From the NCBI GenBank assembly GCA_023627715.1, contig JAMAHW010000042.1, positions 1 to 64,000 of the forward strand: a stretch of DNA of 64,000 nucleotides. Reading direction: 5' to 3'. This stretch comes from Periconia sp. R9002. Its lineage: Eukaryota > Ascomycota > Dothideomycetes > Pleosporales > Periconiaceae. The translations under genes and the position numbers were made by a program. Below, in pieces: positions 4,095-35,429 of this stretch (positions within the stretch are counted from its first letter, which is position 1; each line of letters begins with the position of its first letter). Under the pieces are notes generated by a model. That model was given only the letters and a program-made list of their open reading frames with translations, did no database searches and was not told the origin of the DNA.

Positions 4095-6121
4095 ACGCGC
4101 ATGACGATGGACATTTTGAACTCTCTTCTCATGCGTGTTTTTCTTCTCTCGGACCTTCTGAAGTCGCATTTTCTCTCACATTTTGTTTGGATACCCCACG
4201 TCAGTTTTTCGTACGTTAGCACATATGGGCCGAGGTGGTGCAAGAAAGCACTCTGTGTCGATTCCATTGGGGGGAAAACATGAATTATCCGGTATCATAT
4301 TAACACGCGTTTCCCCGATGTCACCGACCGGGACAGTGGATATCCGATCTATGCACAGCCAGGCGCGAAAGGTTGTACGTGTAGCCCCCATACGTTGCGT
4401 GTATCAAGGCTTTATTTTCGGAAGCGGACCAGGTTAGGAAGGAGGGGTGATTTGAGCGAGCGAGGGAGCCAGCCAGGAAAAGGAAAAGATGGCTGTAGGG
4501 CTGGGAAGGCGAAGAGCCAAGATGGATCGATGTTGGGACATGGGTGGATTGGCTGGGCTGCTTTGTGGGCGCTGCTGAAACGTGGAGCTGGACGGCTCAC
4601 AAATGCCCGATGATCACACGTGGGTGGGATCTCTAATGGGTACCCTCGGGAGTGCGCCAAGGCATCAATTTCAATTCACATTGCCCAAAATGATCAATCA
4701 GCCACAATGGATGCGTAAAATTTGAAATTCATGATTTTTTTCCTCTTTTCTGCGGGTGAAGTATGGTTTCTATGGGACGGGCGTTGCTTTTTCCGTCTTG
4801 TCTTGCTTTGACGCGCTGTAACACCCTTGGTTGGGCACAGCACTGGGCACGGGCGAATTAGAATTGGACGAGGAGCGGGCGGCGGCAATGCGATGAAAAG
4901 CTTGCTCACGCGGACAGTTGATTGAAATGAATGGATGGATCTTGATTAATCTCGCTGTGGCTTCGCCTTTGTTCGATGTGATTTGTGTAGGGATGCGTGG
5001 TAGGGTAGGTGGGTACTGTTACTCGTACAGTAGGCAGGCGGCTGGGTAACAGGACCCAATCAGGGTGGAGAAGCGGGGGTTCGGGGATGTGATTTGCTGG
5101 GACTAGGCGGGCAGCAAGAAGAGAACAAACATCAGATCAACAACACACACCCACACACATACACATACCTACATACATATGCAATGAATGCAGCAGTGAC
5201 ATTTTATTATAATTGGATCGGATTGTGACGCCTTTTCCCTTTCGACGCACCCGCCTACATAAACGTCCAACAAAAAGTGAGTCGAACTGGCCGTCGCAGC
5301 TAGATGATGGAGTGTGGAACATCAAAGTCATGTCAAGTTTTTTTACACACACTCACTCTTCCCCCGCCCATGGCTTGTTTTGGGCTGGATTGGGAAGGGG
5401 TAGGCAGGCGGGTTTGATGCAACGGCGCTTTTTTTTGGCCTTGTTGCGTTTTGCGACTGACTGGTTTGTCGAGGGATGCCAGACAGCTACCCAGCCGTTT
5501 TCGTAGTAGCACGCAAACATTTTGCTTTACTTGGAGCATGTGTGGCTATGCTTGGTGCTGTGGTGTTTATGTGCCCGAGTCGACATGAGTTGTGTAGGTG
5601 ACTATGGGATTGGAGGGGAAGTGGGGTTGATATGGCACCGTGGCATACATGTGTATGCATGTGTATACCAAACGGCACTCCACCGCCATGCAATAATCGA
5701 TGGGGATAAGCGGGGGAAGGAAGGTATGAAATGAAATGCCCGCATTGGCAGAAAAAAGAAAGAGGGGTCAATTGGATACATGCACGTTACCGCCAGCGCG
5801 GGCGGCGCACGCAGGTTTTGGACACGAGGGGTAGATAAAATGCCGTCTGGTCAAACTCTGGGTCGCACACAGGCTGGCTCGCGGTTAAAAGAATCGAGGA
5901 TGCAGCTTTTGGGGTGGGGAGGAAACGTCAGAAGTGTAGAGACATGCGTGTCTTGTCTTGTCTTGTCTTGTGCTGTACGGGTACCTAGGTGGGTGGGTGT
6001 TTTAGGCGTATGCAATGCGTTGCGATGGGCCCTGGCTAGTAAAACTGGGGTATCGTTCGTTGGTTCATCATGGACAGACAGGTCCGTTTCGTTGAATAGT
6101 GTAGACAGTAGAGTAACTCGA

Positions 6122-6151
6122 CTGTTCTGTTCTGTTCTGTTCCGTTCCGTT
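6122..6151. repeat. CTGTT microsatellite
   Basis: Six pentamer copies of TGTTC/CTGTT drifting to CGTTC. It lies in the interval upstream of BEM1. Confidence 0.85.
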
Positions 6152-6371
6152 CATGCAAACTGGCGGCATAGCATTGCAAAGGTGCGGCGAGCGGCAAAAG
6201 GCTTTTCTTTTCTGGAGCTTTTGGCTCCTTTCATCATCCTGGGCAGACTATTCCCGGCGTCTTGCTGCGCCAGCACGCCGGCCTATCCATGCAGATGGGC
6301 ATGCCAGGCCCTGCCGTGCCATGCGCAACAGGGCCAAACCAAAACGCCCCGGCCGCTGACCCTGTGGACAG

Positions 6372-6403
6372 TGAGTGAATGAATGAATGAATGGATGGAT
6401 GGA
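6372..6403. repeat. GAAT/GATG tetranucleotide repeat
   Basis: Four GAAT units followed by three GGAT units. It lies in the BEM1 upstream region. Confidence 0.8.
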
Positions 6404-7441
6404 CTTGAAGCTGTTCTGGTCTGTCGTCACCCCACCTTCCACTGCCATGCCACTGCCACCACCGACGCCTTCCAGCCGCCATCCATGGCCGACGCGCAGC
6501 GCAGCGCACAAAGAAAATAAGCACACACCCTCGATCCCTCCCGTTCCATTTCCCTCCCTTGTCATTCGCCCACTCTCGCTGCTTCGAAGCCTCTTTCTTT
6601 TTTCCTCTTCTGCTACTCGCCCCTTGCTTGCTTGCTTCACTTCTATTACTCACTTTCTTGCTTGCTTGTTTGCTTGGACTTCTCTCGCACCTCTTCGGAC
6701 CACGCTTCTACGTAATTCCATACGGAAACACCCTGGCCCGTTCGTGGGCTTGGCTTGGTGCTTTGTCCGATCGCTCGCTGTGTAATCCGCAACTGGAGGT
6801 TACGCACCCTCGAACTTGTATCAGCCACGCCGTCGCGGAGGAATAAGCATCAGACGCACGCCGCCTACTCATAGTCAAGGTTGGACAGACACCATCCACC
6901 ACTCCAGCTGCAAGAGACGCCGGCACCCACAGAGACTTTGTGCACTATTGCCTATATCGTAACATTACCTATAGTCAACTGCGCACCCACGTCGGCCACA
7001 GACGCCGCCCACGCCAGACCCCGTCATCCTCCCCCTCTGTCCCCGTTGAAGCTCCCACCACCACACCTACGGCACAGCACGCCTTTGCTCTGCATCCCTT
7101 CCCTTCCAAAAACCGCCATATCGCTGCCTGCAGCCCTACGCCATCGCCAGACGGCCTTCACCTCCATTACTTTCGCTGGCGCCGTGCACGGTCCCTCCCC
7201 GAATCATTTCTCCCTTGTCCCCAGCTCGCTGGCGGCCCAAGCCAACCTGCCGGCTTCGATCCTGGTCGCCCGCACATCACAACGCAATCAAACCAAACCC
7301 CGTTCGCAACTCACCCAACACCTTGCTCCTCGCACTACCCCTTCACCACCGCATCGACCCTCTCTCTCTCTCAGTCCCCTTCCTCGTATAAAAATAATAG
7401 ACTTCCCAACCTTGTGGTAGCAGCACCACCTCTCGGCGGCC

Positions 7442-9585
7442 ATGATGAAGGTATGCGCCCCCGCCCCATAGCCACCCTTTCCACGTACTCCGGCCGCCTA
7501 CGCTTCCGAGTCATGCGCTGTTCTCTGTTTCGTTCCAACCGTGCTAACTCACATCGTAGTTTCGACGGTCGATGAAGAGCGAGAAAGACAATCGCCCTCA
7601 CCATGTCTCCATTCCGCCCAAAGATGCCATCGCCATTGTACCGCCCAAGAAGGTGAGTTGCTCCTTTGTCTCTCTCGACCGTTTTCTCTATGCGCTTTGG
7701 CCCCGCCAGCTGCTGACCATCTTATCACGTAAAACCAGGTCATAAAAGCCCTCTACGATTACACCCACACGCCCCCCGACCCCGGGTACCTCAGCTTCTC
7801 GCAGGGCGATTTCCTTCACGTTGTAGGCCGCGAAAATGATAGCGATTGGTACGAAGCCTGCAATCCGTTGCACAACACCCGCGGTCTGGTGCCCGTCTCC
7901 TATTTCGAGGGTGTAGGGAAAACAGTACGAGATAGCGCTGGCTCCGCAAGATCAGGCCCTCCGGCCGCACCTCACGATTCCGGATATCAGGAGCGCAGCA
8001 TAACAAGCCCGGCGAGCACAGATGATGGCATGAAGCCCGGTGGTCGCCAATCAAAGCAACCAAGCATGGGAGGTATGGGCGGCATGGGGGGTATGGGAGC
8101 AGGAGCCATGGCTGCAATGATGATGGGAAAGGGTTCGGGCGCAATGGTCTACGGCATCGTGATTTACGACTTCAAGGCAGAGCGACCCGACGAGCTCGAG
8201 GCAAAAGAGGGGGAAGCCATTATTGTCATTGCACAATCTAACCCCGAGTGGTTTGTCGCAAAACCCATCACACGACTTGGAGGCCCTGGCTTGATCCCCG
8301 TATCGTTTATCGAGATTCGCGACATGAGCACAGGCAAGGCTGTGCCCGACCCGCAAGAGGCTGTCCGCCGCGCAGGCGTGCCCAAGGTGGAGGAATGGAA
8401 GAAGATGGCTGCCGACTACAAAAACGGCAGTATTCCCCTCGGCAAGCTCGAGCAAAACTCGCAGCAGACGCTGCAGCAAGGTATGGAGCGCATGAGCCTG
8501 AGCAACAAGAGTCAGACGGGCGGGGCTCCCAACGGCGGTTATGGCCAACAGAACCCAGTGAGTTTTGCCTAATAAGTGAAATAGCCCGAATTTTTCCTAA
8601 TCAGTCACTGCAGGGTTCCCATTCGCGAAATGCATCCCTTGCCCAACGACAGCAATACGACTCATCCGAGGCAAACCTGCTTGCGCCCGTCAAGGCAAGC
8701 GTACCACGGTACTGCTTCGCTGACGACATATTCTGGTTCATTATCGAGTGTGAGATGTCCGATGGACGCCACTGGGAGCTGCAGCGTCTGTACCAAGACT
8801 TTTACGATCTTCAGATTCAGCTGATTGCGACATACCCCGTGGAAGCGGGTACCAGTGGAGCGGGCGAACGCACGCTACCTTTCATGCCCGGGCCAGTCAC
8901 CTACGTCACTGACAACATTTCCAATGGCCGCCGCGCGAATTTGGACGAGTACATCAAGAATTTGCTAACTCTGGGCCCACACATCACCAATGGTTACCTC
9001 GTCAAGAAGTTTTTCGATCCAAGAACCGGCGACTACGAGATTGATCCGGAGATTGCAGCGACCGAAGAATACCGTCTGTCGCAACAGTCTGCACAGTCCT
9101 CGAATCCATCACAAGGAGGCTCGAGACAGTCTTCTGCCGATCATCTGCAAGCCACGACTCCACAAACCCCATACTCGACAGGGTCCAATTATCCGAGCCA
9201 CCAACGCGGCCACTCCATCGGCAGCCAGTCCTACGGTCTCAATCCGCCCCCCATCCAGCAACAGCATTCGACCCTCTCAGCTTCATCGGTCTCGACCACG
9301 GCCACCAACACAGCCTCTGGCGGAAGTACTACCAAGATCAAGGTGTGGTTTGACGAAAACACTTGCGTCGTTATCCGCATGCAGTCCATGCGATACACGG
9401 ATCTATATGCCAAACTGAAGGAGAGAAGAGACATGGACAAACCCGAAGAAAAGAACGAGGAGCTGTTCATCGAATACCGGGATGAGACCGAAGGCCAATA
9501 CTACCCGATTGAGAATGACGAGGACCTGGAGATTGCAGTCAAACGGAATCCCAAACTGGTCATGTCCGTGACCCCTGCCCGATGA
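7442..9585 (+). CDS. BEM1: Bem1-type polarity scaffold
   Basis: Scaffold that joins Cdc42, its GEF and PAK kinase at sites of polarised growth. Exons 7442-7450, 7560-7652, 7739-8557 and 8614-9585; all junctions keep frame, giving 630 residues. The first coding exon is only nine bases (Met-Met-Lys), followed by a 109-bp intron with branch GCTAAC. Domains in order: SH3-1 at about 35-95 (ALYDY, VPVSYFE), a Met/Gly-rich linker at about 144-169 (repeated GGM), SH3-2 at about 171-227 (IYDFKAERPDELEAKEGE, GLIPVSFIEI), PX at about 335-455 (RYCFADDIFWFIIECEM, GRRANLDEYIKNLL), a Ser/Gln-rich linker, and a C-terminal PB1 domain at about 546-630 (TKIKVWFDE, IENDEDLEIAVKRNPKL) that would bind Cdc24. Domain order and length fit Bem1. 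Confidence 0.95.
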
Positions 9586-13376: not shown

Positions 13377-13586
13377 GAATTAGGTAGGATGGAAGGGGTG
13401 TGTTGCGTAGGTACGTACGTACGGTCAAGGGTGGGGTGGGGTATTGTGTGTATTGATAGCGGGAGAAAGTCAGGTGGAATAGAAGAAGAGGGCTTGTTTT
13501 TTTTTTTGGGGGGGGGGGGGGGTGTAGTGGGGGGGAAGGGTGATGATTAGATTTTATGGAAGTTTCTTTATTATTTTTTTTGCTGT

Positions 13587-13596
13587 NNNNNNNNNN
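13587..13596. other. assembly gap of 10 N
   Basis: Ten consecutive N. The flanks share a partial repeat: a GGGTGATGAT...TTATGGAAGTTTCTT segment appears on both sides at about 13538-13570 and 13628-13660. A GC-rich block follows the gap directly. Confidence 0.98.
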
Positions 13597-13670
13597 GCCG
13601 CGCGCCCCCCCCCGCCGCGCGCGGCACGGGTGATGATGAGATGTTATGGAAGTTTCTTTCTTCTTTTTTT

Positions 13671-13840
13671 GGCTGAGTAGGGGCGCAGTAACGGATTTTG
13701 TACGCTTGTTTTTGGTGGAGTGGGCGTGGGATGGGGTGTTGGAAGTGGATGGTTTTCTGGCTGAGTAGGGGCGCAATGACGGACTTTGTACGCTTGTTTT
13801 TGGTGGAGTGGGCGTGGGATGGGGTGTTGGAAGTGGATGG
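13671..13840. repeat. 88-bp direct tandem duplication
   Basis: Copy 1 starts at 13671 and copy 2 at 13759. Both begin GGCTGAGTAGGGGCGCA and end in GGGGTGTTGGAAGTGGATGG. They differ at a few transitions near positions 17-30 of the unit (CAGTAACGGATTTTG versus CAATGACGGACTTTG). Confidence 0.92.
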
Positions 13841-14077
13841 TGGTGGTGTGTTGAGAGAGTATTGTGACGTAGAAGAGGAGGTGGATAGGGTTGGGGTTTT
13901 GGTAGTTTGGTTATGTATCATTTTGTGTTGCAATAGTTAAATTGTGAGATTTACGTAGAATTGAGCTTGTTCATTTCTGTAGCCTATCAACAAATCTTCG
14001 TTTCATTTCTAAGAAAGGCTAACAGGCTGATTGCATGCCGCGGATGATTCAAATAGCTACGTAAGAAGAACGTTTAT

Positions 14078-15083
14078 TCAGTACGGATTCCTCGATCTGC
14101 TGAAAAAGTCTTTGAAGTCGAGGCCTGATGCTCTCCCAACGATTGACCCGTTCGTCGCTTTGACTTGGTCGATATACAAGCTGGTGTTTCTGGTTTCGGG
14201 GATGTTGAAAGATCCTACTAGGCTATCGTTGGCCGTGATGTTGGTGATGGACTCGCCTTGGTGTAGACTGTGGGCTTCCGTGCGAATTTGCCGCAGAGCT
14301 TGCCTGTATAGATCGAGACGGTCATTGGTGCGCGTGAGTTCTTCGATGTTGTCTGATTCTTCTGAAGTGGTCCTAGGACTAGGGTCGAAAAATGTTGCTT
14401 CGTTTTGGTGCACGGTTTGTCGAAGGTCGGCTAAATGGTTGTTTAGACGGAAGGTAAGCTGCGAGAATTGTTCTTTCAGCCTTTCCAGGCTTTCCTGGTT
14501 CGCGTTGCTTGTTTCTGTTGAACGAGTTGCCAAAGACCTAACAAGTGCGCTCGCTGATAAGTATTTTTCCCATGAAAAATGTAAAATGTATCGTTGCAGT
14601 GCAATGGGATTGATACTCGAGGAATCACTTTCCCATACAAGCTTCTCTAGATATATTCACTTACAGAGTAGCCAGAGTAGTAGAGGCAGTGATTGTGTTT
14701 TCGCACGCCTCCAATCTTTGCAGTAGATACTGCAGGTGCTTCTGTTTGAAAACACCTATCGATATTCGATCCGCCCAATGCAACTTGCCATTCTCGGATC
14801 GTTTTGTCAAATCACCGAGTTTTTGATGGAATGAGGAACAATCATCTCTGCAGCTTATGAAGCATTCTTCGAGTCGGGCTTGCGTAGCCGGGGCGAGTCT
14901 CTGAAGGGATGCCCAAGTGTCGGATTCCACAGAAGTAAATCGATCTTCAAGACATTGCAGTCTTTTTGCTAGTGCATTGACTTCCTCCGGGGCGTCTCTG
15001 ATAGCGGAAATATCTTCCAGTAGGATGTGGATTGTATGAAGGACTATAGCGCCGATGCTCATTATAGAAGCTGCCCCATCCAT
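14078..15083 (-). CDS. HeLo-like domain protein with two C-terminal amyloid-type repeats (putative NLR effector)
   Basis: Exons 15083-14665 and 14537-14078. The 127-bp intron (GTAAGT...GTTAG) joins as L-S-L-A, giving 292 residues. Residues 1-140 resemble the fungal HeLo-like N-terminal domain of STAND proteins: a hydrophobic first helix (IMSIGAIVLHTIHILLED), then IRDAPEEVNALAKRLQCLED, then further long helices. There is no NACHT domain, so the protein is a stand-alone N-terminal module. Residues 150-232 are polar and helical. The tail holds two repeats, ITNITANDSLVGSF (237-250) and IDQVKATNGSIVGRA (262-276). The divergent NLR carries the same motif near its N-terminus (IENVTASESNIGHF). By analogy with HET-S or HELLP it would be a membrane-active cell-death effector triggered by templated folding. 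Function is inference; exon structure and motif sharing are seen directly. Confidence 0.78.
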
Positions 15084-15597
15084 CTTCGCTAGATCCTAAC
15101 GGCTCGTGGTTATCAAGCCCCAATATTTCCGATAAAGGGTTAAGTTAGGTGTTAAAAATTGTCAGTGAAATAGCAGAGGACACTCTTGGGAGTTGAGGGA
15201 GGGAATAGGCCATGTGAGATGCGTCGAATTTGCTTTGCGTGGATTTAATACCGCGGATTCAGAGTATCGCGGGGCTTAGCTAAGACAAGGATAAAAAGAC
15301 AAGACAGATAGAGTCACTACCAATGATTGGATAACAATCTGGAATACGAAAGTCCATATGCAAGGCTGAGGCGGAGTGATTTTGCCTGCTGACTGCAACA
15401 CTCACGCCTTCCTCCTCCCCGCATTCCCTCCGTAAGAGCCGGAAAGCGCTACAACAGCTACCTGGCTTTGCGTCGATCTGTTTTTGAGAGTATCGTAGCA
15501 CTCTCTTCGCCCCGAATCATCGAAGTCGTATAGCTTCTTTCCTGCCCTTCGCAGGTCAGAATCCCTGCATGTGTCCTAAGCGAATCATTGGCAGTCA
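15084..15597. promoter_or_regulatory. shared divergent promoter of the effector/NLR pair
   Basis: 514 bp separate the start codons of the divergent HeLo-like gene (15083, minus) and NLR gene (15598, plus), so both promoters must lie here. No other gene is supported. I see no obvious core element beyond a few AT-rich patches. Confidence 0.6.
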
Positions 15598-18500
15598 ATG
15601 GAAGGCCCCAATATAAGGATTGAAAACGTCACTGCAAGCGAGTCCAACATAGGACATTTTCAATCTATTCGTAAGCACACTCATCAACTCAGTTACAGAT
15701 ATCACTAACGTGGTATACCTAGATCAGGAGAACCCCCTTAAGTCCCTGCGATGGAGCCCAAACGCTCTTTTCAACGCGTACTATGACCAGGACGAAGAGG
15801 AATGGCGAAAAGGGACCCGAAAGGAAATACTCGAGACGTTGTACAAGTGGGTCAGTGCTGACGATCCTCGGCATGTGTTTTGGCTCCAAGGGTGGGCCGG
15901 CAGTGGGAAATCGACAATTGCGAAAGAGGTTTCGCGACGATACTACAACGAGGGGAAGATATGGCTTGCTTCTTTCTTCTTCCGCAAGAATGATGTGGAG
16001 TCTATCAACAGTTTTGTAGGAACCCTAGCGAGGCAGTTGGCAGAAAGTCGCAGCAGTTTCAAGGACGATATGAGAAGTCTTGTGAAAGCCTATACGTCCG
16101 AGGTCCGACAAGCCCTCGAAGAGCAACCGTCTATACAAGATCGAATGCTGATCGATCAATGGGATGCACTCATTGTTGAGACCCTTTCAAAACTGCAAGC
16201 TATTGGATCGAATCGGCTTCTCCTTGTGATCGACGCCCTGGACGAGTGTTCGAACCCCAACGAGATTCCTCAAATTTTAAGGATCCTGGGAAAATCTGGA
16301 CACCTGGGTAAATTCACTGTCAGAGTTCTCATAACCAGTCGACCAGAGGAGCCTGTACGAAATGCCCTCCCTCAGGCGTCACTAACCGGATACTGTACGG
16401 AAAAGTTGCATGAACAACTCTCTGAGCATGTCACACGTGATATGAAATTGTTCATGCAAAATCGAATCTTGATGTCTGGGATGCGGAGCTCCGAACATAT
16501 GGAGTTGGACCAGAAATTAGATAGGCTCGTTGAAAAAGCTAGCGGGCTGTTCATCTGGATTTCAACTGCAGCAAGACAAATTCTGGCCAAGAGAACACAG
16601 GAGGCTAGAGAAAGAGAGCTCAATCGTCTACTCAACTTGAAGGCTACAAAATCTATCAGCGAGCTGTACACGAACGTCCTGCACCAATTTATCAATCCGG
16701 CAGAAGACAGCGATGATGATGACGCCGATGATCAAGATATGGATTGCAAAAAACTGCGATACATACTGGGCAGTATGGTAACCATCAAAAGTGGCTTGTC
16801 AGCGCTATCATTACAGCAACTACTAGGGGAAAGGTTATTAGGCAAGAGCAAAGTAGAGGATATGCTGAGCCAACTACATTCTATCGTGGATGTTCCGCGT
16901 AACCTATTCGTCGTCAACATACCTCGTTATGGTGTACCTGCATCTAACCCCAGTGATCAACGAGATCACTTCCTCAGTAGGTGGGGGAAAGATATGCGAC
17001 TACATCATCCCTCATTCAATGACTATCTTCTTGACAAAACACGATGTCGCGATGGCCGATTCCATGTCGATAGAAGAGAAGCTCATCGCCATCTGGCAGA
17101 GTCTTGCTTGAGACTGATGTCGGATAATCTCAAGCAAGATGTCTGTGATTTGGGACATCCCGGTTCTAGGGCAAGCGATTTGCCAATATTAAGGGCGGTG
17201 TCAAGATTGTCCCCAGCTATGCGGTATGCGAGCGCAAACTGGTATTACCACTTGGTGACTAGCGATCATGTTTTTTCAGACGACGTTGAAAAAGATACGA
17301 TGCATGCATTTCTGAAAAAACACCTACTTCATTGGTTCGAGGCTTTGGGATGGATGGGAATGTTAGTCGATGGTATTCGGGTACTCGTCGACATTGAAAG
17401 AAGAATTGATGTATGTTGGGGAAGTCAATATTTGATCTGGAACCAAGGTAGCTGACCGTAAACAGACCAAAGCCTGCCCAAATCTCCATGCCTTCGTGTA
17501 CGATGCAAAGCGTTTCGTCTTGTTTGGACGAAATATAATTGAGGAAGCGCCACTCCAGGTTTATTGCAGTTTACTCATATTCGTCCCATCACAAAGCTGT
17601 GTCAGAAAAGCATTCCAAAATTGTTTACCACCATGGGTAATATTTTCAGGCAAACGCAAAACGTCGTGGACGTCTCTCATACATACACTAGACTTAAGAC
17701 CAGACGGTTATATAACGCCAGATGTTACATGCACATTTCTCACGAACGACCACTTTGCGACTATAACGTCCAATTTATACTCCAAAGTCAAAATTTGGGA
17801 TGTGAATACCGCAACCCTACTGCAAGATATCTGTGTTGAGGTGAGAGACTGTTGTAATATTACAGTTTCCCCTTCTGGATCGCATATCGGAGCAATCTAT
17901 GGCTTTGGTAATTTGTTCTTGTTCGATTTGAACACACAATCCCGAGTTCCCACTCCAACTGCATTACCTAGAAATGGCTGGGCGAAACTATATTCTGTGA
18001 ATTCCCAATTTTTGGGGTTACATACTGAAAACAGCACCCTATGTATTTGGGATCTGGAGAATTTGGAGAAAATAATCAGTTACAAGCTCCCTGACCCACT
18101 TCAAAAGCTAACTAATACCGAGCTTCGGTATACAGTGACTGCTAGAGATGAGAAAATAGCAGTCCATATACGACACACTTCTGAATACCCTGACTTACCA
18201 GAGGTTCGAAATTATTTGTTTGTGTTCCAACGCACAGAATCCAATCCAAAGATTACGGAGATATCACTTCCTGCCGATTCCCGAGAACAATTTGCCGATC
18301 TCTTTTTACCATCCCAAGCCAATGTCATTATTGTTAGCCTGGACACAAAGGTCATAGTATACGATTGTGAAACCGGCGCCGGAGTCTCTGAGCTTGATTT
18401 CTCAAAGGCTGATGACAAAGACTGTCGATATGTCCGTAGACTAGGACCCTCGATCGAGCGGGATTGTTTCTCACTGATTTCGGAAGGGCAGAGTGGTTTT

Positions 18501-19256
18501 AAGCTGCTTTCATTCAATTTCGTTTCTGGAATGGGACACATAGATTCAGACCAGTCGTCCACAAAAAGCGGAAATGTCGAGTCCAATTTCACCTGGCTCA
18601 CAAAGCGATGGTGGCAATTCTCAGGAGAGCAATTTCAGTTTTCCCCGGATGGCTCGAGATTAGCATCAATGCTGGCTGGAACCTCGATCCGACTATGGGA
18701 CTTGAACATGAACTTTTGCGAGCCGCTTCAAAACATAACTAGGATAACCTCCCATACAATCATCTCTCAAAACGCAAAGTTTGCAACATTATATGATGCT
18801 AAGACTATGATAATATGGAACATTCGAGAAGGAACAGAAGCCTTTCGCTTCCTTTGCCCGAATGCCAAATTTTGGGGTTTCGCCACGGATGAAAAGCTTG
18901 TCGTGGAACATGGTTGGCGAAACATTACAATAGTTCACATGCATACCTGCCACAGAGAGGATCTTGTGCAATCAGATCTTCCCACTGATGTCGAAAAAGA
19001 CGTACTTGAGGTTATAGAGCATTCCAGAGGCGAATATATCAAATTTGATTTCACCTTTTTCCTTGACGGAGAAAATCCCTCCAAACAAGGCCTAGGCATT
19101 TCTGGCGGTTGGATCACATTCGATGGGCGTAAAATCCTATGGATTCCTCCTGAGTATCGACAAGGCGCAAGGAAAAATTGGAAAGATGTCAGAGTTGATA
19201 TTGTGGTTTTAATTGAAGCACCAATTTTTCTCGCTTTCGATTTCAGCAAGTTGTAA
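15598..19256 (+). CDS. NACHT NLR with short N-terminal amyloid-type motif and WD40-like C-terminus
   Basis: Exons 15598-15670, 15723-17410 and 17466-19256, giving 1183 residues. Intron 1 (GTAAGC, branch CACTAAC, CCTAG) and intron 2 (GTATGT, branch GCTGACC, ACAG) both keep frame. The 24-residue first exon carries IENVTASESNIGHF (residues 8-21), matching the repeats of the divergent neighbour. The NACHT NTPase has its P-loop GWAGSGKST at about 81-89 and Walker B LLLVIDALDEC at about 190-200, then a winged-helix region (LHHPSFNDYLLD) and a helical linker (NLHAFVYDAKRFVL, IIEEAPLQVYCSLLIF) typical of fungal NLRs. From about residue 640 the protein is a degenerate WD40-type propeller (KVKIWDVNTATLLQ, LCIWDLENLEK, SIRLWDLNMNF, MIIWNIREG). 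Unlike high-identity WD NLRs, these blades are divergent. It is a likely sensor whose oligomerisation seeds the effector. Confidence 0.88.
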
Positions 19257-19999: not shown

Positions 20000-20952
20000 A
20001 TGATGAAATTTATCGCTCTTTCACTTGCGCTCGCTTTCACGCCATCGTTGGCTTTTCCTAGTGCATCGCCTAATGCTGGAGAATGGAAAGCCCCCGGCGA
20101 AGGCGACGGTACGTTTTCCCGTACTTCGAAACACGAAGATTCTGATGCTTAGAAAACCAGACCGAGGCCCTTGCCCTATGCTCAACACTCTAGCCAACCA
20201 CGGCTACTTACCTCGAACGGGCAGAGGCATCAGCAAAGACATGGCTGTCAAAGTCTTGGATGAAGTCCTCAACTGGGACGCGTCGGTTGTCAACGATCTG
20301 TACGATTTCGCGCAGCCGACAAATCCGGCGCCAAACGCAACAACCATTAATCTCAAGGAACTAACCACTCACAACATCCTCGAGCATGATGCTAGTTTGA
20401 GGTACCTTTCTCCCCAACGCCCCGAACACATTTAGTTCCTTCTTCTAACGCTTCTCCCTCACTAGCCGTCAGGACAGCAACTTCGGCCCCGCCGATGTCT
20501 TCAACGCCAAAATCTGGAACGAGACCGTCGCGCACTTCACCGGAGACACAATCGACGTAGCCATGTCAGCCAAGGCCCGCACAGCCCGCACCATCACCGC
20601 TGCATCCACGAACGCCCTCTTCACGTTCCCGCAATTGGGTATGAACTTCCAGTACGGCGAGACGGCGGCGTACCAGTTTGTATTCGGGAAGTGGAACCTC
20701 GATGCCGAGGATGTGAAGAACCGCATCTTGACGCCTAAGAATTACATTGAGTATTTCTTTAGTATGTTGTCCCTGTTCTCTAGTGGTTGAGGGTTAATAG
20801 CTGATTATGCTTTTTTCTTTGTAGAGAACGAGCGTTTGCCGACTGAGCTCGGCTGGAAGAAGCCCGTTAATCGGTTGGTCATGGATACGCTGCAAGCGTT
20901 TACCATCAGCGTGATGGACCTTGCGCAGACACAGATGAACGAGGGAGCTTAA
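20000..20952 (+). CDS. secreted heme-thiolate peroxidase (chloroperoxidase / peroxygenase family)
   Basis: Exons 20000-20108, 20161-20401, 20466-20761 and 20825-20952; introns of 52, 64 and 63 bp all keep frame, giving 257 residues. An N-terminal signal peptide is visible (MMKFIALSLALAFTPSLA). The family signature PCPMLNTLANHGYLPR follows, with the Cys at about residue 41 as axial heme ligand. The conserved EHDASLSRQD block spans the second junction, which confirms the splice. The length matches short peroxygenases, which oxidise organic substrates with peroxide outside the cell. Two ATGs are adjacent at 20000 and 20003 and either could be used. Confidence 0.9.
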
Positions 20953-22819: not shown

Positions 22820-25288
22820 ACGCTACCATTCGCATGATGGAACTGCCTCGCTCGCCCTATAGAAAGCGCGGGCTTATTCCACGCAGTAATCCATTCAGTT
22901 TGATCTAGAGCATTGTGAAATAAGATGCTATTATCAGCGTAAGAGAGTGAATGCTTACATCAATATATTAAGCCTCTACCCAATCAATAAATCTTACAAG
23001 TGGTGGACGTAAACGCCATGACCAGTCCAAAGTCTCATGTTCCGCCCAAGACAATCTGTGCATCTGGGGATAAGAAGTCATTTCTCCGCAAATATTCCTT
23101 TTGAGTCAACTTGATATCATCGTCAACCCTGGCCCAATCCAGTGAAAAAACGGCGCATCGTTTACGCTTACAGGTATAGCCCACACGTGGCCCGTTCATC
23201 AACACCGCCTCCTACGCCCTACCAAGCCCTGTCTGTCAGGGACATGTTGTCGCAATGATCTGACGCCAAGTCCGATTGCTATCAATCAACATCAAGGAGA
23301 TAAGATCAATCAGCCAGGCCTTAGGTCCACGAGTCCCAGACGGATTGTGGCTTTGAGACTAAACCTAACCCGGACCAAAACGCGACAACTGGGATAGATA
23401 TCCTAAACGCATCTCCGACGGAGAAAGAATTGCTCCGCGATACTTGGTCAATTGGCTTCCCATTATGCGACATGAGGAGAGCATACAGAGGGAGAGTGTG
23501 GACTGTGGAGTATTTTTTTGTATTGCGCTCATCCTACAGACATCGACAAGTCAGGCCCGAACTATCAATAGTTGAGCTCAGGAACAGTAGACATTCGCAA
23601 TGCACCGCTTTCTACCGCATTACAAACTTGAGTCGAAGAGTAACTGAGCCACTACTTCGTATTTCCCATAAGCAAGTATATATATCAAAACTATAAGTCG
23701 TCGTTTAGTATCACGCTATCTGATCAAGATGAATTCCGGGTACATGGTTCGTGGGTATGCGATATATTTGGTGGATTTGAACATCGGCCGACGAGGTAAT
23801 CCGACCGACCGACCGACCGGACCTGCGCCAGGCCAACAATTGGTCAAGGATACCCAAAAACAGAAAAAAACTCTCCGCAAACACTCAGCGCGACTGGACA
23901 CAGCTTATTGCAAGATGCGTTGTGATACAGACAGAAAAGGTGCTATTCCCCGAGCGATTAGTTGTATTGGGTTCTGAACTTGGCCCGTTCATCTGTACCA
24001 AATCATACCTGAGTCTCCTGGGAACGAGCCGAGATGTCAACAAGACAGGTAATGCACCATGTGGCTTACTATCCAGCTTTCTAATATATTATTTATTGCC
24101 TATAAATGATCAAAACAGGATTCTAATGCCTTTTTTGTCCCCATCGGCCGAATATCAATATTTCACCTCGAGGGACCCGACTTCGTTCAGTTCAACTGAC
24201 GCAGTCATCCCAAACGAGACAACAACACCAGAAAAAGGCCAACGTCATGCACCAATGTCAGCCTCCAACCTCCCATTCCATCATCCGTAGTACTATGAAA
24301 CGTACGAACCGCGCCTTACACACAACCCCCAATACAACGAACTACTAAAAAAATAAGCAATACGCACGGCCGTAAGCCAGCCCCGGCCGCGTCACTCCCT
24401 TTCCCCTTCTCACGTTGTGCCCTCTTGGCAAAGGGCCAACCTATTACTCCGCCTCCGTCTACCGACGGCCGATCAATCACACTCACTGCCTCGACATTCA
24501 GGATCCATCGCAAGTTTAACCCCATTTAACTCATATCAGAACGTGCAAATGGACGAATCGCATCGCACGTCCGATTAGGCAGCACGCGGGATTCGGCTTT
24601 GTTGTTGCGACCATCGCCTCTGAATCCCGTGTTAGGTACCTATATCGATTTCTGCTACGGTGTAGGGAAATGGTTCCTAGTGTATGTTCGTATTCATGTA
24701 GGTACACGACGACGTCGACGACTGTCTAAGGGACATGGTACTCGTCATCGATAAAGCTTGCCTGATTCTGTTTCGACTCATTCCTACACAATGTCCTGGC
24801 CCCTTCCCTGGCCCCACGCACTCCGCGCGCACCGCCGCGCTTGGACGTCCTGGCTACGTACGAATGATAACTCGCTATTGTAGGCTGTGTAATCCACAGC
24901 CCTAGAGAAGGGTCCAGGGATTCTACGGCCGTTACGTGTATGTACTTCTCGGATGATTTTTCTTGGTGTTGTTGTTTATTGTGGAAATTGGTGAGATATA
25001 AGGATGGAGTCGGATCTCTCTTGGATCTAGATTTCATCATCATCATCTTCCCTCTCCCCCACGACTACTTCTTACTACGCCTATCACGAACCCTTTTTTC
25101 ATATTCCTATTTCAGATTTAGATCTTTTATAGGGTTGTTTTTTCCGTTTTCCAGCGACTTTGTTTAAATAAACCCATCGACCTCAATCACAAACACTCAA
25201 CTCCCTCCTCAACCATCAACCCAGAACAACAAAAACACCACCACTAAAAGAGGTGTACCAAACACACCCCACACACACGACCCTCAAA
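22820..25288. other. gene-free interval
   Basis: About 2.5 kb without a supported gene. It contains a short CCGA repeat at 23801-23820. From 25040 on it is the pyrimidine-rich leader of the RTA1-family gene. Confidence 0.5.
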
Positions 25289-26305
25289 ATGCCCACCCCA
25301 CCCCACGTCCAAGTCTCTCCCAGCTGCGACTCGGTAACCCCGGACTGCCCCGTCGAAGGCACCATCTACGGCTACACCCCCTCCCTCGAATGGAACGCCT
25401 TCTTCGCCGCCTTCTTCGGCCTCTGCTTCGTCCTCCAAGTCGTCCTCGGCATCCGCTACAAAACCTGGACCTACATGATCGGCGTCGGTCTCGGGTGTAT
25501 CGCCGAATGCGTAGGCTACATCGGACGCCTCATGATGCACAACAACCCCTACAACGAGCTCGGCTTCCAGATCCAAATCGTGCTTCTCATTTTCGCGCCC
25601 GCGTTCCTGGCGGCGGGGATTTACCTCACGCTGAAGCATTTGGTGATTCAGTTTGGGCAGGAGTGGAGTCGTTTGAGGCCGAGGTTTTACACGTACGTGT
25701 TTATCGCGTGCGATGTGAGTAGTTTGCTGTTGCAGAGCGCGGGTGGTGCGCTTGCGGCGACGGCGGACGATGATAATGCCAAGGTGAGGGATATGGGGAC
25801 GGATATTATGATTGCGGGGATTATCTGGCAGGTTGTTGGTGAGTTGTTCCCCCTTTTCTCTTTCTTCACTTCAGAGTAGGTTCCTAACAGGGGAAAAACA
25901 GTTCTCGTAATCTTCGGCGCCATCGTAGCTGAGTACGCCATCCGCACCTGGAGGCGCAAGGACTCGCTATCGGCCTCCTCGCACGCCTTGTTGGCCGACA
26001 CAAAGTTCCGTCTCTTCCTCGGTGCCATCTTCACCGCCTACATCACCATCTTCGTGCGCTGCGTGTACCGTATCCCCGAGCTGCTCGGCGGCTGGGGTGG
26101 CGATATGATGCGCAACGAGCCCGAGTTCATTGCCCTCGAGGGCTGGATGATTCTGCTGGCCGTGCTGGCTCAGACTGCTTTCCACCCCGGCTACTGCTTC
26201 CCTCCCATGGCTGGCCGCAAGAATAGCAGTGCTGGCGACTTCAGGAAGGCGATGAGCTCTGATGGGGAGGCTAGTGATATTGAGATGATGGCGAGGCGGC
26301 AGTAG
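25289..26305 (+). CDS. RTA1-family membrane protein
   Basis: Exons 25289-25838 and 25902-26305. The 63-bp intron (GTGAGT, branch CCTAAC, ACAG) joins as W-Q-V-V-V-L-V, giving 317 residues. The start is the ATG at 25289 (context AAAATGCCC). Seven hydrophobic segments are visible, with family hallmarks: YGYTPSLEWNAFF at the first segment, YIGRLMMHNNPYNELGFQIQ after the third, LLIFAPAFLAAGIYLTL, a GG-containing segment DVSSLLLQSAGGALAA, FVRCVYRIPELLGGWGG, and the terminal HPGYCFPPM. The RTA1 fold includes yeast Rsb1 and Rta1, linked to lipid translocation and resistance to sterol-targeting compounds. Substrate here is unknown. Confidence 0.9.
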
Positions 26306-31721: not shown

Positions 31722-33189
31722 ATGTGAGCTGCCCCGAAACCGTTCCTGTGCTACAAGCCAAAAACAAAAAATAACAACCATGATCATGTCCCCAACTAAC
31801 CCTCCTTTGCTTGGACAGGCCCCGCGTCACAATATCCATCAACGCCCCCGACCAGGCCTCCGGGACCGACATCCTCTCCTTGGAGCTGCCGCCTGGTCTG
31901 ACCATCCAGGAGCTCAAGGCCCTGATTGAAGCCGACACAAATCACCCCGTCGCATCGCAGCAGCTCTTCTTGAACGGGAGCCCATTGAACACACAATCCC
32001 AGACACTCGAGGAGGCGGGAATAAAAGATGGGGAAATGCTCGCCCTGCTCGTTCGCCGCCGTGGGAACCCGCCACAGCGGCCGCAGCAGGCCCAACCGCA
32101 GCATCCCGCCGGCTCAGGAGCACCAAATGCCCAAGACAACCCCGCAGCACAAGCAGAAATGGCGCGGCAAAGGATCTTGACAGACCCAAGGGCCGCCGAG
32201 GAGGTCAGGACTCGGCGCCCCGTGTTGCACGCCGCCATCAACGACCCAAACCGCTGGCGTGAGGAATTCTTCAACATGCTTCGCGATAACGACAACAACG
32301 CACGCGAGCGGGAGCTCCAGATTCAGCGCTTGAACGAAGATCCGTTTGATGTAGAAGCCCAGCGCAAGATCGAGGACATTATCCGCCAAGAACGTGTCAT
32401 TGACAATCTTCAAGAAGCATTGGACCATAACCCTGAAGGTGAGCAAATATCCTTGTAGTGGGGACCTGTTTCTCTTGCAAAAAGCTTACGAGAGTGGTAG
32501 TTTTCGGTCGCGTGCACATGCTCTATGTCAACACGGAAGTGAATGGTGTCCCTGTCAAAGCCTTTGTAGATTCGGGTGCGCAGGCCACCATCATGTCCCC
32601 AGACTGTGCCGAGAGATGCGGTATCAAGCGTCTTATGGATACTCGATATTCCGGTATAGCCAAAGGTGTTGGTACCGCCCGCATTCTGGGACGGGTCCAC
32701 TCCGCCGAAATCCAAATTGGCGGCGTCGTCATGAAGTGCGCTTTTACCGTCATGGAGGGCAAGGATGTGGATTTACTTTTCGGATTGGATATGCTCAAGC
32801 GGTACCGAGCCAAGATCGATCTTGAAAAAGACGCTTTATGCTTTGAAGGCGTCGAGGTGCCCTTCTTACCGGAGAGTGAAATACCAAAGGGTTTTGAAGA
32901 AACAGAGCCGACCGTGGATGGACCAAACGGTACCAAGATTGGATCGATATCAGGCGCTGTAAAAGAGGCCAATGCGCCATCCAAAGTCGCTCAAGGCCCT
33001 CCTCAAGCCGCCCCGGCTCCTGCTTCAGCGAGCACACAGGCAGGAGCCTCGACCGCAAACCAACTTCCTCAAAAGGACATTGATACACTAACAGACCTAG
33101 GCTTCTCGCGACAGGACGCTGTTCAGGCATTGGAGGCTACCGGTGGTAATGTGGAGTTCGCTGCTAGTCTACTCTTTTCACGTCAGTAA
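31722..33189 (+). CDS. DDI1: Ddi1, ubiquitin-shuttle aspartic protease
   Basis: Exons 31722-31723, 31819-32438 and 32501-33189. The first intron (31724-31818; GTGAGC, branch AACTAAC, ACAG) falls inside the start codon (AT|G), so the protein begins MPRVTISIN. The total is 436 residues. Domains: ubiquitin-like fold at about 1-75 (LTIQELKALIEADTNHPVASQQLF), helical middle (WREEFFNMLRDNDNNARERE), retroviral-type aspartic protease from about 208 with the catalytic FVDSGAQATIM (Asp231), and a C-terminal UBA (DIDTLTDLGFSRQDAVQALE). Ddi1 delivers or cleaves ubiquitinated substrates at the proteasome. The second junction, E-V-F-G-R-V, restores the conserved protease start. Confidence 0.93.
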
Positions 33190-33737
33190 GAAACTGACAT
33201 GAGACCGCTAAAAGCGACGGTTCGGTTCCTCTGGGTCCTCCGCAGGATCATGATCATGCATTCGGCAGGCGCAGGTGGTCTCAAATTTGCTGCATTTAGC
33301 ATGGAAACTCTGGGGCATATCTCAATGTAGTAACTACTACGGGGATTACTGTCTTTGGCTTATTAGAAAGTGTGGGGGACTGAGTCTCTCGAAATGCCTT
33401 CTGGGAATATCCAACGGGCACTATCATGAAAATTCATGAAGTCATGACACTAGAATATATGTCTCTATCCTTTCCAAGTCTAAAGCGTATTTATTGAAAT
33501 TTGTGTTGACTACTTCAAGCCTGCCTTTGGAGAAAATGCGTCTAACAATCTCATACCTTACAGATACCTGTTCTTGATTCGCTCTTGTGGTAGCCCCACT
33601 CTAATTTGGCCTCGGCTCGCAACATTGTTTATCCGTCCCCAGCAAAAAATAATCCAACAGCTGTTGCACTGCGCCAACGGAAATCAATCGTTCGAACCGC
33701 CCATCCTCCTAGGACGATCCCGAGTACAATTGCAGCC
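33190..33737. other. intergenic region DDI1-RRP8
   Basis: 548 bp containing the DDI1 3' flank and RRP8 leader. The open frame extends upstream of the RRP8 ATG to 33606 without an ATG. Nothing else was seen. Confidence 0.5.
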
Positions 33738-35429
33738 ATGTTTTCAGTGCCCGGATGGAACCTGTCCGCCAATCTCGCTACGCAGGTCGAGAAACCGAAA
33801 GCTCAAGATCCGTCAAAAGAAGGGAAGAAAGCAAAGAGGAGGAGGCAGAAGCAGGAGGACCAGATAAACGAAGGCAATGTTGGAGATTTTTTCAATAAAT
33901 TCGCTAGTGGGCAAGATGCCACTGCTGATGGTGTTAAGGAGTCTGTGGTGAATGGTACCCAGGCTCCCGCGGGCGAGGAAACGCAAGAAAAGAGAGGGAA
34001 GAAGAGGAAGAGGAAGAGCAACAAGGAAAAAAAAGAAGGAGAAAATGGGGTGGAAAAAGTTGAAACTTCGATAGGAGACAACCCTGCCCCAGTAGACTCT
34101 TCGAAAGGTGACGACGCACCGGTGCCGAAAGAGAGCGAGTCCAAGCGCGATAAAAAGAAGCGCAAGAAAGAGCAAAAGTCTACCGACTCCAAACCTACCG
34201 AGACCTCTACCTCAAACGAGATTTCAAAAGCTCCCGCACCCTTGTCCCTTCTACCTCCGGAACCCAAAGGCCTCACACCGCTTCAAAAATCCATGCGCCT
34301 CAAGCTCGCCAGTGCGCGCTTCCGCCATCTAAACGAAGCTCTCTACACTAAGCCATCCGAAGAATCACTTTCACTATTCAAACAAGACCCCACAATGTTC
34401 GAAGATTATCATCGAGGCTTTGCGCAGCAAGTTGAAGTGTGGCCGGAAAACCCTGTAGACAGTTACGTCAACACCATACTCGCCCGCGGTAAAATTCGCA
34501 CCAAGGATCCTTGGAAAGATAAGAAGCGGAAAGAGAAGAAAGGAAAATCCAACCCCAACGAAGCCGTTGACTCGACACCCAACCCTATGGAAAAGGGTCT
34601 CAAGCCGCTTCCACGAAATCTCAAATCCCATGCCACCATAGCCGACTTGGGCTGCGGCACAGCCTCACTCTCCCATCGTCTCCAACCCCATCTCAAGTCC
34701 CTGAACATGACTCTCCACTCCTTCGATCTATCCAAACCCACAGGACCTTCTGCTCCCCTCGTCACAGTTGCCGACATATCCGCGGTTCCGCTCCCGGACA
34801 ATTCCGTCGACGTGGCCATTTTCTGCCTGGCGCTCATGGGCACCAACTGGCTAGACTTCATCGATGAAGCATGGCGCATCCTACGCTGGAAAGGTGAACT
34901 CTGGGTCGCGGAGATCAAGAGTCGATTCGGCCGCGTCGAGCGCCGGAAAGCCGGCCAAGGCCCCATCAATTCCATCGGCAGTCTGCGCAAAGCAGACAAG
35001 AAGCCGAAACCCAAAAAGAAAAAAGACAAGCCGGAGGAAGAAGGAATCCAAGGTTCCGACGACGAGAAGGAGCTCGCCGAAATCGTCGATGGTCAAGAGG
35101 GTCAGGAAGGCACTGATGTTTCATCCTTCGTGGCGGTCCTTCAGAAACACGGGTTTGTCCTAGACGCATTACCAGAGCGTCAATCCGACGCCATCGACCT
35201 CTCCAACAAGATGTTCGTCAAGCTGCAGTTCGTCAAAGGAACCTCGCCGTCTCGCGGGAAAAACGCGAAGAAGGAAACTACCACCCCCAACACGTTCAAC
35301 AAAGGAGGTCTGAAGATGGGTATCAAGGGCAAGAAATTCGCCGCCGTCACGGGAGCCGATGGCGAAGGCGAAGACGACGACGAAAAGGATGCGAAGACCT
35401 TGAAGCCGTGCTTGTACAAGATCAGATAA
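33738..35429 (+). CDS. RRP8: Rrp8, 25S rRNA m1A methyltransferase
   Basis: Single exon, 563 residues. It begins MFSVPGWNLSANLATQVEK, the usual fungal N-terminus. A long basic region follows (KKAKRRRQKQE, KRGKKRKRKSNKEKK, KRDKKKRKKEQK) that fits nucleolar targeting. The Rrp8 catalytic part starts at MRLKLASARFRHLNEALYT and continues through YHRGFAQQVEVWPENPVD, the SAM-binding loop IADLGCGTA (about 302-309), FDLSKP, VADISAVPLPDNSVDVAIFCLALMGTNW and EAWRILRWKGELWVAEIKSRF. The N-terminal insertions make it longer than yeast Rrp8 (392 residues). There is an extra Lys-rich insertion after SRFGRVE. It methylates adenine in helix 25.1 of 25S rRNA in yeast. Confidence 0.94.
   Translation: MFSVPGWNLSANLATQVEKPKAQDPSKEGKKAKRRRQKQEDQINEGNVGDFFNKFASGQDATADGVKESVVNGTQAPAGEETQEKRGKKRKRKSNKEKKEGENGVEKVETSIGDNPAPVDSSKGDDAPVPKESESKRDKKKRKKEQKSTDSKPTETSTSNEISKAPAPLSLLPPEPKGLTPLQKSMRLKLASARFRHLNEALYTKPSEESLSLFKQDPTMFEDYHRGFAQQVEVWPENPVDSYVNTILARGKIRTKDPWKDKKRKEKKGKSNPNEAVDSTPNPMEKGLKPLPRNLKSHATIADLGCGTASLSHRLQPHLKSLNMTLHSFDLSKPTGPSAPLVTVADISAVPLPDNSVDVAIFCLALMGTNWLDFIDEAWRILRWKGELWVAEIKSRFGRVERRKAGQGPINSIGSLRKADKKPKPKKKKDKPEEEGIQGSDDEKELAEIVDGQEGQEGTDVSSFVAVLQKHGFVLDALPERQSDAIDLSNKMFVKLQFVKGTSPSRGKNAKKETTTPNTFNKGGLKMGIKGKKFAAVTGADGEGEDDDEKDAKTLKPCLYKIR

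Follow-up and report, generated by a model that had tools for sequence, protein, structure and literature searches.

A divergent HeLo-like effector/NLR gene pair of Periconia with a short HET-s-like repeat: a candidate amyloid-signalling pair

Few signalling amyloids are understood as well as the HET-s-related repeats, and pairs of genes in which a NOD-like receptor (NLR) and an effector carry copies of such a repeat are well described. We analyze here a pair of this layout from the fungus Periconia sp. R9002, located at positions 14078–19256 of the first 64,000 nucleotides of contig JAMAHW010000042.1 (assembly GCA_023627715.1), the stretch of DNA that we refer to throughout as the window. One gene encodes a HeLo-like effector, and the other, its divergent neighbor, a NACHT/WD40 NLR. 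We consider it quite probable that the two make up an amyloid-signalling pair of HET-s-related layout, in which the motif occurs once in the NLR and twice in the effector. The novelty lies in the short repeat, which is kept in the NLRs of three genera.

Three named systems invite comparison. In HET-S/NWD2 of Podospora anserina, whose repeats belong to class 1 of the HET-s-related amyloid motifs (HRAM1), the effector has two repeats, the NLR has one at its N-terminus, the receptor is of the NACHT plus WD type, and the genes are adjacent, all as in the window, where the second effector repeat is a likely one. The effector domain there is HeLo, however, rather than HeLo-like, and the window repeats are without the R at motif position 15 (R15), without about three residues, and without a match to PF11558. 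HELLF/FNT1, also from Podospora anserina, couples a HELL effector of 277 amino acids (aa), against 292 here, with C-terminal repeats and an adjacent NLR gene; according to its description (PMC7889193), the repeats are HRAM5 with a proven beta-solenoid prion, whereas the pair in the window has shorter repeats. In HELLP/PNT1, too, a HeLo-like effector adjoins an NLR with which it shares a terminal motif, but that motif is the single-copy PP, with an NxGxQxGxN core, and the receptor is NB-ARC-TPR; the window pair has none of these. An earlier, sequence-only reading of the window took the layout to be exactly that of NWD2/HET-S and PNT1/HELLP. The likeness stands for HET-S, and for HELLF, with their two effector repeats; for PNT1/HELLP it is not exact.

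The gene pair and its shared motif

The components of the pair, in window coordinates, are these:

14078–15083, minus strand: effector gene, HeLo-like, two exons (15083–14665 and 14537–14078; spliced frame), 292 aa
14538–14664, minus strand: effector intron, 127 bases, GTAAGT...TTAG; junction supported by the relative P0002
14336–15074, minus strand: HeLo-like domain (PF17111 PigL_N, Pfam match), residues 4–207, with the intron inside
14207–14248, minus strand: motif copy r1, ITNITANDSLVGSF, effector residues 237–250 (spliced frame and shuffle tests)
14123–14176, minus strand: weaker, likely second motif copy r2, YIDQVKATNGSIVGRASG, effector residues 261–278 (same register; marginal by shuffles)
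14081–14122, minus strand: aromatic-bearing tail after r2, LDFKDFFSRSRNPY (spliced frame)
15084–15597, no strand: region between the two start codons, 514 bp (gene models)
15598–19256, plus strand: NLR gene, three exons (15598–15670, 15723–17410 and 17466–19256), 1183 aa
15619–15660, plus strand: motif copy r0, IENVTASESNIGHF, NLR residues 8–21, in the first exon (spliced frame and shuffle tests)
15815–16342, plus strand: NACHT-type NTPase, residues 56–231 (NPHP3_N PF24883, E value 2.3e-24; NACHT PF05729, 4.7e-07)
17748–18884, plus strand: WD40 beta-propeller matches, about residues 682–1060 (several WD40-type Pfam models)

Between r0 and r1, 7 of 14 positions are identical and 4 more are conservative, at the positions and in the numbers that the sequence-only reading had claimed. 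When residues 1–24 of the NLR were shuffled, 14 of 20000 shuffles reached the true score against the last 65 residues of the effector, and 25 of 20000 did so against the whole protein. No decoy reached the score of the window pair among 6463 tried, these being the 65-residue windows, from residue 26 on, of 117 NLR relatives. The second effector copy, r2, fits the register of r0 and r1 with one residue more, and shuffles do as well in 144 of 2000 cases against r1, and in 175 of 2000 against r0; because of its conservation and its place, it is likely to be a second repeat nonetheless. By our numbering, about 7 residues lie between the two repeats.

The proteins around these copies are of the expected kinds. 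The effector matches PF17111, the family formerly named Helo_like_N, with an E value of 3.3e-10 and 40.1 bits, above the curated cut-off of 27.2; a SesA match lies below its own cut-off. In the NLR, r0 stands where an N-terminal effector domain would be in a NACHT/WD40 receptor, and the best WD40-type match has an E value of 8.8e-12, every such match falling below its curated Pfam cut-off. The splice sites of both genes are our pick among several open introns, and annotated proteins of Periconia macrospinosa agree with all three predicted junctions: TLATL-SLATRS against HLATL-SVATRS for the effector (gapless alignment), and, by eye, HFQSI-HQENPL against HFQTI-NQENPL and ERRID-TKACPN against ETRTD-IKACPN for the NLR. 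The assignment of 15598–15670 as the first exon of the NLR is thereby supported at the level of sequence, and the spliced models bear out the claim that the genes are divergent, with ATGs 514 bases apart.

The P. macrospinosa relative of the effector, P0002, matches it at 66% over full length, and that of the NLR, P0004, at 60%; the NLR motif copy is nearly identical to r0 (79% over 24 residues). Both records give 537317 for the longest contig, so this is probably the same neighboring pair, with the two genes adjacent. Between the window effector and P0002, 111 of 141 columns are identical in the first 140 residues and 39 of 95 in residues 141–233; in r1, 13 of 19 are identical, in the loop 2 of 7, and in r2 plus the tail 28 of 33. 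The motif region as a whole (43 of 59) has thus stayed much the same, whereas the sequence preceding it has drifted.

The strict motif, I..[IV].A..S.[IV]G.F, was sought in 123 proteins, including the best 120 of 926 NLR relatives, themselves drawn from the 7991 candidates that shared most words. Three proteins contain it, and they are the three best-scoring NLR relatives; P0002 and P0003, the effectors of P. macrospinosa and Periconia digitata, are each one position short. In the NLRs of Dendryphion nanum and Corynespora cassiicola it lies at the N-terminus, at residues 8 and 7 respectively, and for each of these copies 0 of 2000 shuffles are as good against r1 of the window effector. The Corynespora copy scores 41 against the window effector, and 25 against the window NLR. 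These matches across genera seem to us a better argument against chance than the P. macrospinosa pair, and they also lend some help to the suggestion that the motif may be a new subclass. The Periconia, Dendryphion and Corynespora species represent three families of Pleosporales. A looser scan for length took in 116 of the 120 NLR relatives, the 4 that lack a starting M being excluded. By eye, the NLR N-termini of P0010 and P0068 (IQINEKAHLGDTY and IQISGTAHLGDTY) resemble HET-s-related motifs with the stretch before the glycine shortened, a sign that repeats may differ in length by more than has been described.

The repeat beside known amyloid motifs

The HRAM survey (PMC4518210) describes two repeats near the C-terminus of effectors of up to 310 aa with a HeLo, HeLo-like or SesA domain. 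In 98 of 155 cases an adjacent NLR has a further copy at its N-terminus; loops measure 6–18 residues in 154 of the 155, and aromatic tails are frequent. The repeat is given as a 21-residue motif, hydrophobic at positions 5, 8, 10, 16 and 18, with G at 19 and R or K favored at 15 (PMC4518210). It was found as a gapless MEME motif, second copies being added by local alignment, and a small fraction of the 155 sequences needed gaps in the first repeat (PMC4518210); a shorter repeat could therefore have been passed over.

The window pair has this plan. Its effector is HeLo-like and of a fitting size, with PF17111 over cut-off; the adjacent NLR has one N-terminal copy; and of the two C-terminal repeats r1 is clear and r2 in register but weak, separated by a loop of about 7 residues and followed by a tail containing DFKDFF. 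With the conserved glycine set as position 19, I falls at 5, V or I at 8, A at 10, S at 16, and V or I at 18, and positions 11–15 are filled by 2 residues in r0 and r1, and by 3 in r2. The repeat thus appears to have kept the HRAM plan and to have lost about three residues near positions 13–15, R15 with them. The sequence-only reading said that the motif lacks the R-V-x-[IL]-G-N core: the core does differ, but a better account of the difference is that the repeat has lost some three residues from the stretch between positions 10 and 16. By its plan the motif likely descends from HRAM; alignment of the sequences does not show it. The residues that mark the HRAM classes are absent, position 3 being other than N, Q or H, and Q occurring at neither 16 nor 18.

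PF11558 is not listed for the whole effector at E values up to 1, nor for three C-terminal fragments at up to 10, under HMMER filters that drop most matches above 0.1. NACHT_sigma (PF17106) is likewise not listed for four NLR N-termini, with filters that are weak for short motifs; sigma mostly occupies residues 50–99 (PMC9815663), whereas r0 is at residue 8, and a sigma identity is unlikely. The same source gives NxGxQxGxN as the core of PP, and FxGxGxQxxGxGxF as that of PUASM, which accompanies a PNP_UDP effector (PMC9815663). By eye, the PP core is found in none of r0, r1 and r2, the PUASM pattern is absent, and the effector, as we have seen, is HeLo-like. In the literature searched, which covered few subscription papers, no title or abstract opening among those found mentions this pair, or any HRAM class with short repeats.

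The genome of this Periconia, 42.9 Mb in 267 contigs, provides a comparison of its own. It has 19 matches to PF17111 and 11 to HeLo, counted exon by exon; a scan of downstream frames covered 29 of these 30, the HeLo match on contig C84 having no locus. Protein searches with r0 (and the residues next to it) and with r1–r2 found this locus only, among the best candidates, which alone were scored; and the strict motif, sought alongside a looser pattern in all six frames of 46 loci, occurs only in the 8 that overlap the pair. Three other HeLo-like loci were viewed to about 10 kb. Two of them, on C12 and C109, have by eye a divergent NLR-type neighbor:

C109 pair, L044 (G000:C109:47300-57200): effector at about 4185–5185, minus strand; NLR-type frames from 5507, plus strand (NLR by eye)
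C12 pair, L043 (G000:C12:598500-608400): effector at 4484–5604, minus strand; NLR-type open reading frame with Walker motif at 6128–8122, plus strand

At C109, VVNATATGDARMIVGNV in an NLR-type frame aligns without gaps to VETAVAKMRARQVIGNM at the end of the effector, a likeness equalled by 41 of 20000 shuffles; this was the one piece to pass of 29 frame pieces tried (13 in L043, 16 in L044), and was then tested in focus. The pair thus appears to share a full-length HET-s-like motif. It resembles the window pair in its divergent HeLo-like and NLR-type genes and in a shared stretch ending in a hydrophobic residue, G and N. It differs in that its repeat has the ordinary length: R15 is present, and 5 residues separate position 10 from position 16. 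Going by these sequences, two or more amyloid-type pairs are probably at work in this genome, and their repeats differ in length. The C12 effector ends in a glycine-rich string, QLVILTKGGNGIVGTMVARG. The 13 frame pieces that lie upstream of the NLR-type reading frame include no match to this string, which has a relative at C148 (L027, L045). At the C148 locus no NLR-type neighbor was seen, one side being cut by the end of the contig. Near 168000–168300 of C81 (L007), the frame before the NACHT exon of an NLR holds PAVHIGKNANAHLGNNNYLG, which has the look of an ordinary HET-s-related motif of an NLR; for C81 neither HeLo nor PF17111 has a listed match.

Weighing the alternatives

The view of the sequence-only reading, that the two genes form an amyloid-signalling pair, finds support in the HeLo-like domain, the NACHT/WD40 NLR, the divergent adjacency, the copies at the NLR start and effector end, and relatives that keep the motif. 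A number of results weigh against it. The P. macrospinosa pair, taken alone, is weak: 587 of 20000 shuffles are as good against the last 65 residues and 1911 of 20000 against the whole effector, as are 32 of the 6463 decoys, and in its r1 an S replaces the V or I of the strict pattern, which is therefore missed. Compared with copies of r0 or r1, r2 is matched by fewer than 5% of 2000 shuffles in just 3 of 14 comparisons. In P. digitata, r1 is without its final F, and the annotated effector (P0003) is without the piece from r1 to the end of r2, the start of r2 included, perhaps because of an annotated intron; no NLR of this species is named among the best 120 of the 926 relatives. The repeat departs from the 21-residue pattern in having S at 16 and 2–3 residues rather than 5 at 11–15; by eye, the preferred R or K at 15 is absent from r0, r1 and r2, which have I, E and L at position 3. 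The Pfam amyloid-motif models fire on none of seven fragments, and a PF11558 profile search of the genome came back empty, although no positive control rang in it, either. No relative of the effector was found outside Periconia with an alignment of the three effectors at E values up to 10, in a search that required shared exact words and scored the 7996 candidates sharing most of them, and so the motif has been seen on the effector side in the window and Periconia so far, and on the NLR side in three genera. Could the resemblance, then, be chance, and the HeLo-like protein merely lie beside an unrelated NLR? The weakness of the P. macrospinosa pair and the marginal standing of r2 speak for it, but the shuffles and decoys for the window pair, the fit of NLR copies from two other genera to the effector copy, and the better conservation of the motif region than of the stretch before it, speak against; this explanation, already disfavored, we regard as very improbable.

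The main functional rival is that the shared peptide is a short linear motif of another kind, by which NLR and effector make contact directly, through strand pairing or a common third partner, with no self-propagating fiber. Sequence alone cannot separate amyloid from other homotypic contacts; at 14 residues the core falls short of the 21 of a HET-s repeat, and the silence of the Pfam amyloid-motif models also favors this rival. Against it stand the repetition of the HET-s plan—one NLR copy, a clear and a weak effector copy, a glycine that follows a hydrophobic residue, and aromatics in the tail—and a motif region that is predicted to be unfolded. In an AlphaFold2 model of P0002, built from a two-sequence alignment, helices occupy residues 3–136, and long helices continue to 236, while the tail, 237–295, is modeled as unstructured with a predicted local distance difference test score of about 30 (the model mean is 61.5). 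Structural comparison with VIA-align lists, among others, the HET-s HeLo domain, the MLKL executioner domain and the plant Rx coiled-coil domain. High Z comes easily to helical bundles, however, and this likeness is no more than compatible with membership of the MLKL/HeLo four-helix-bundle superfamily. Foldseek returned no match at E values up to 0.001, and a sequence search against solved structures gave 12 weak rows, the best at 0.076, with HeLo named in none. We think the linear-motif explanation improbable, if less so than chance.

A third alternative concerns classification alone: the mechanism would be the same, but the pair would be an ordinary member of HRAM1–5 with a short repeat inside the known variation. 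The gaps needed by a few surveyed first repeats favor this, as does the listing of two HRAM2 proteins in Corynespora cassiicola (PMC4518210), along with the seemingly shortened N-termini of P0010 and P0068. On the other side are the 2 or 3 residues where five belong, the missing class markers (position 3, R or K at 15, Q at 16 or 18), and the full length and R15 of the C109 pair in the same genome. Gapped alignment of the motif to the ordinary-length C109 copies, a further result that counts against the amyloid reading, was equalled by 9, 39 and 87 of 2000 shuffles in three of ten comparisons, and by more than 5% in the other seven. Ordinary membership is a real possibility, though we would not bet on it.

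Surroundings and proposed mechanism

The pair is placed among what look like ordinary genes. By eye, the neighboring frames resemble Bem1 (SH3-PX-PB1; 7733–9585), a heme-thiolate peroxidase (20000–20800), an RTA1-type membrane protein (25172–25879), Ddi1 (31784–33189) and Rrp8 (33594–35429). On the 3' side of the effector, 13500–13930 is rich in G and C and of low complexity, and contains near-duplicate GT-rich blocks as well as a gap of 10 Ns at 13587–13596; it is perhaps an assembly joint.

By analogy with HET-S/NWD2 and HELLF/FNT1, we infer amyloid formation, templating and killing for the pair. The WD40 end of the NLR would sense a ligand and the receptor would oligomerize, allowing the r0 copies to stack into a cross-beta template onto which r1 and r2 of the effector would be converted. 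The HeLo-like bundle, whose start (residues 4–22) is more hydrophobic than any other 19 consecutive residues of the effector, would then go to the membrane and kill the cell, a death that would serve defense or self/non-self recognition. With about three residues near positions 13–15 absent, and R or K at 15 among them, each rung would be shorter, and seeding would probably run in a separate channel.

Taken further, the repeat might define a separate amyloid-signalling channel in Pleosporales. It would be a ‘short-arch’ relative of the HET-s repeat with 18 residues (I-x-N-[VI]-x-A-x-x-S-x-[IV]-G-x-F), found where NLRs begin in three or more genera from three families, and it would fold into a smaller solenoid rung and not cross-seed with the ordinary-length repeats of the same genome. 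On this proposal we find the scales evenly balanced. If a natural repeat does function with some three residues fewer and without the usual positive residue, it would tell us how far a templating rung can shrink, and by what means fungi prevent parallel death signals from mixing—and the ordinary-length pair of the same genome would serve as a built-in control for specificity.

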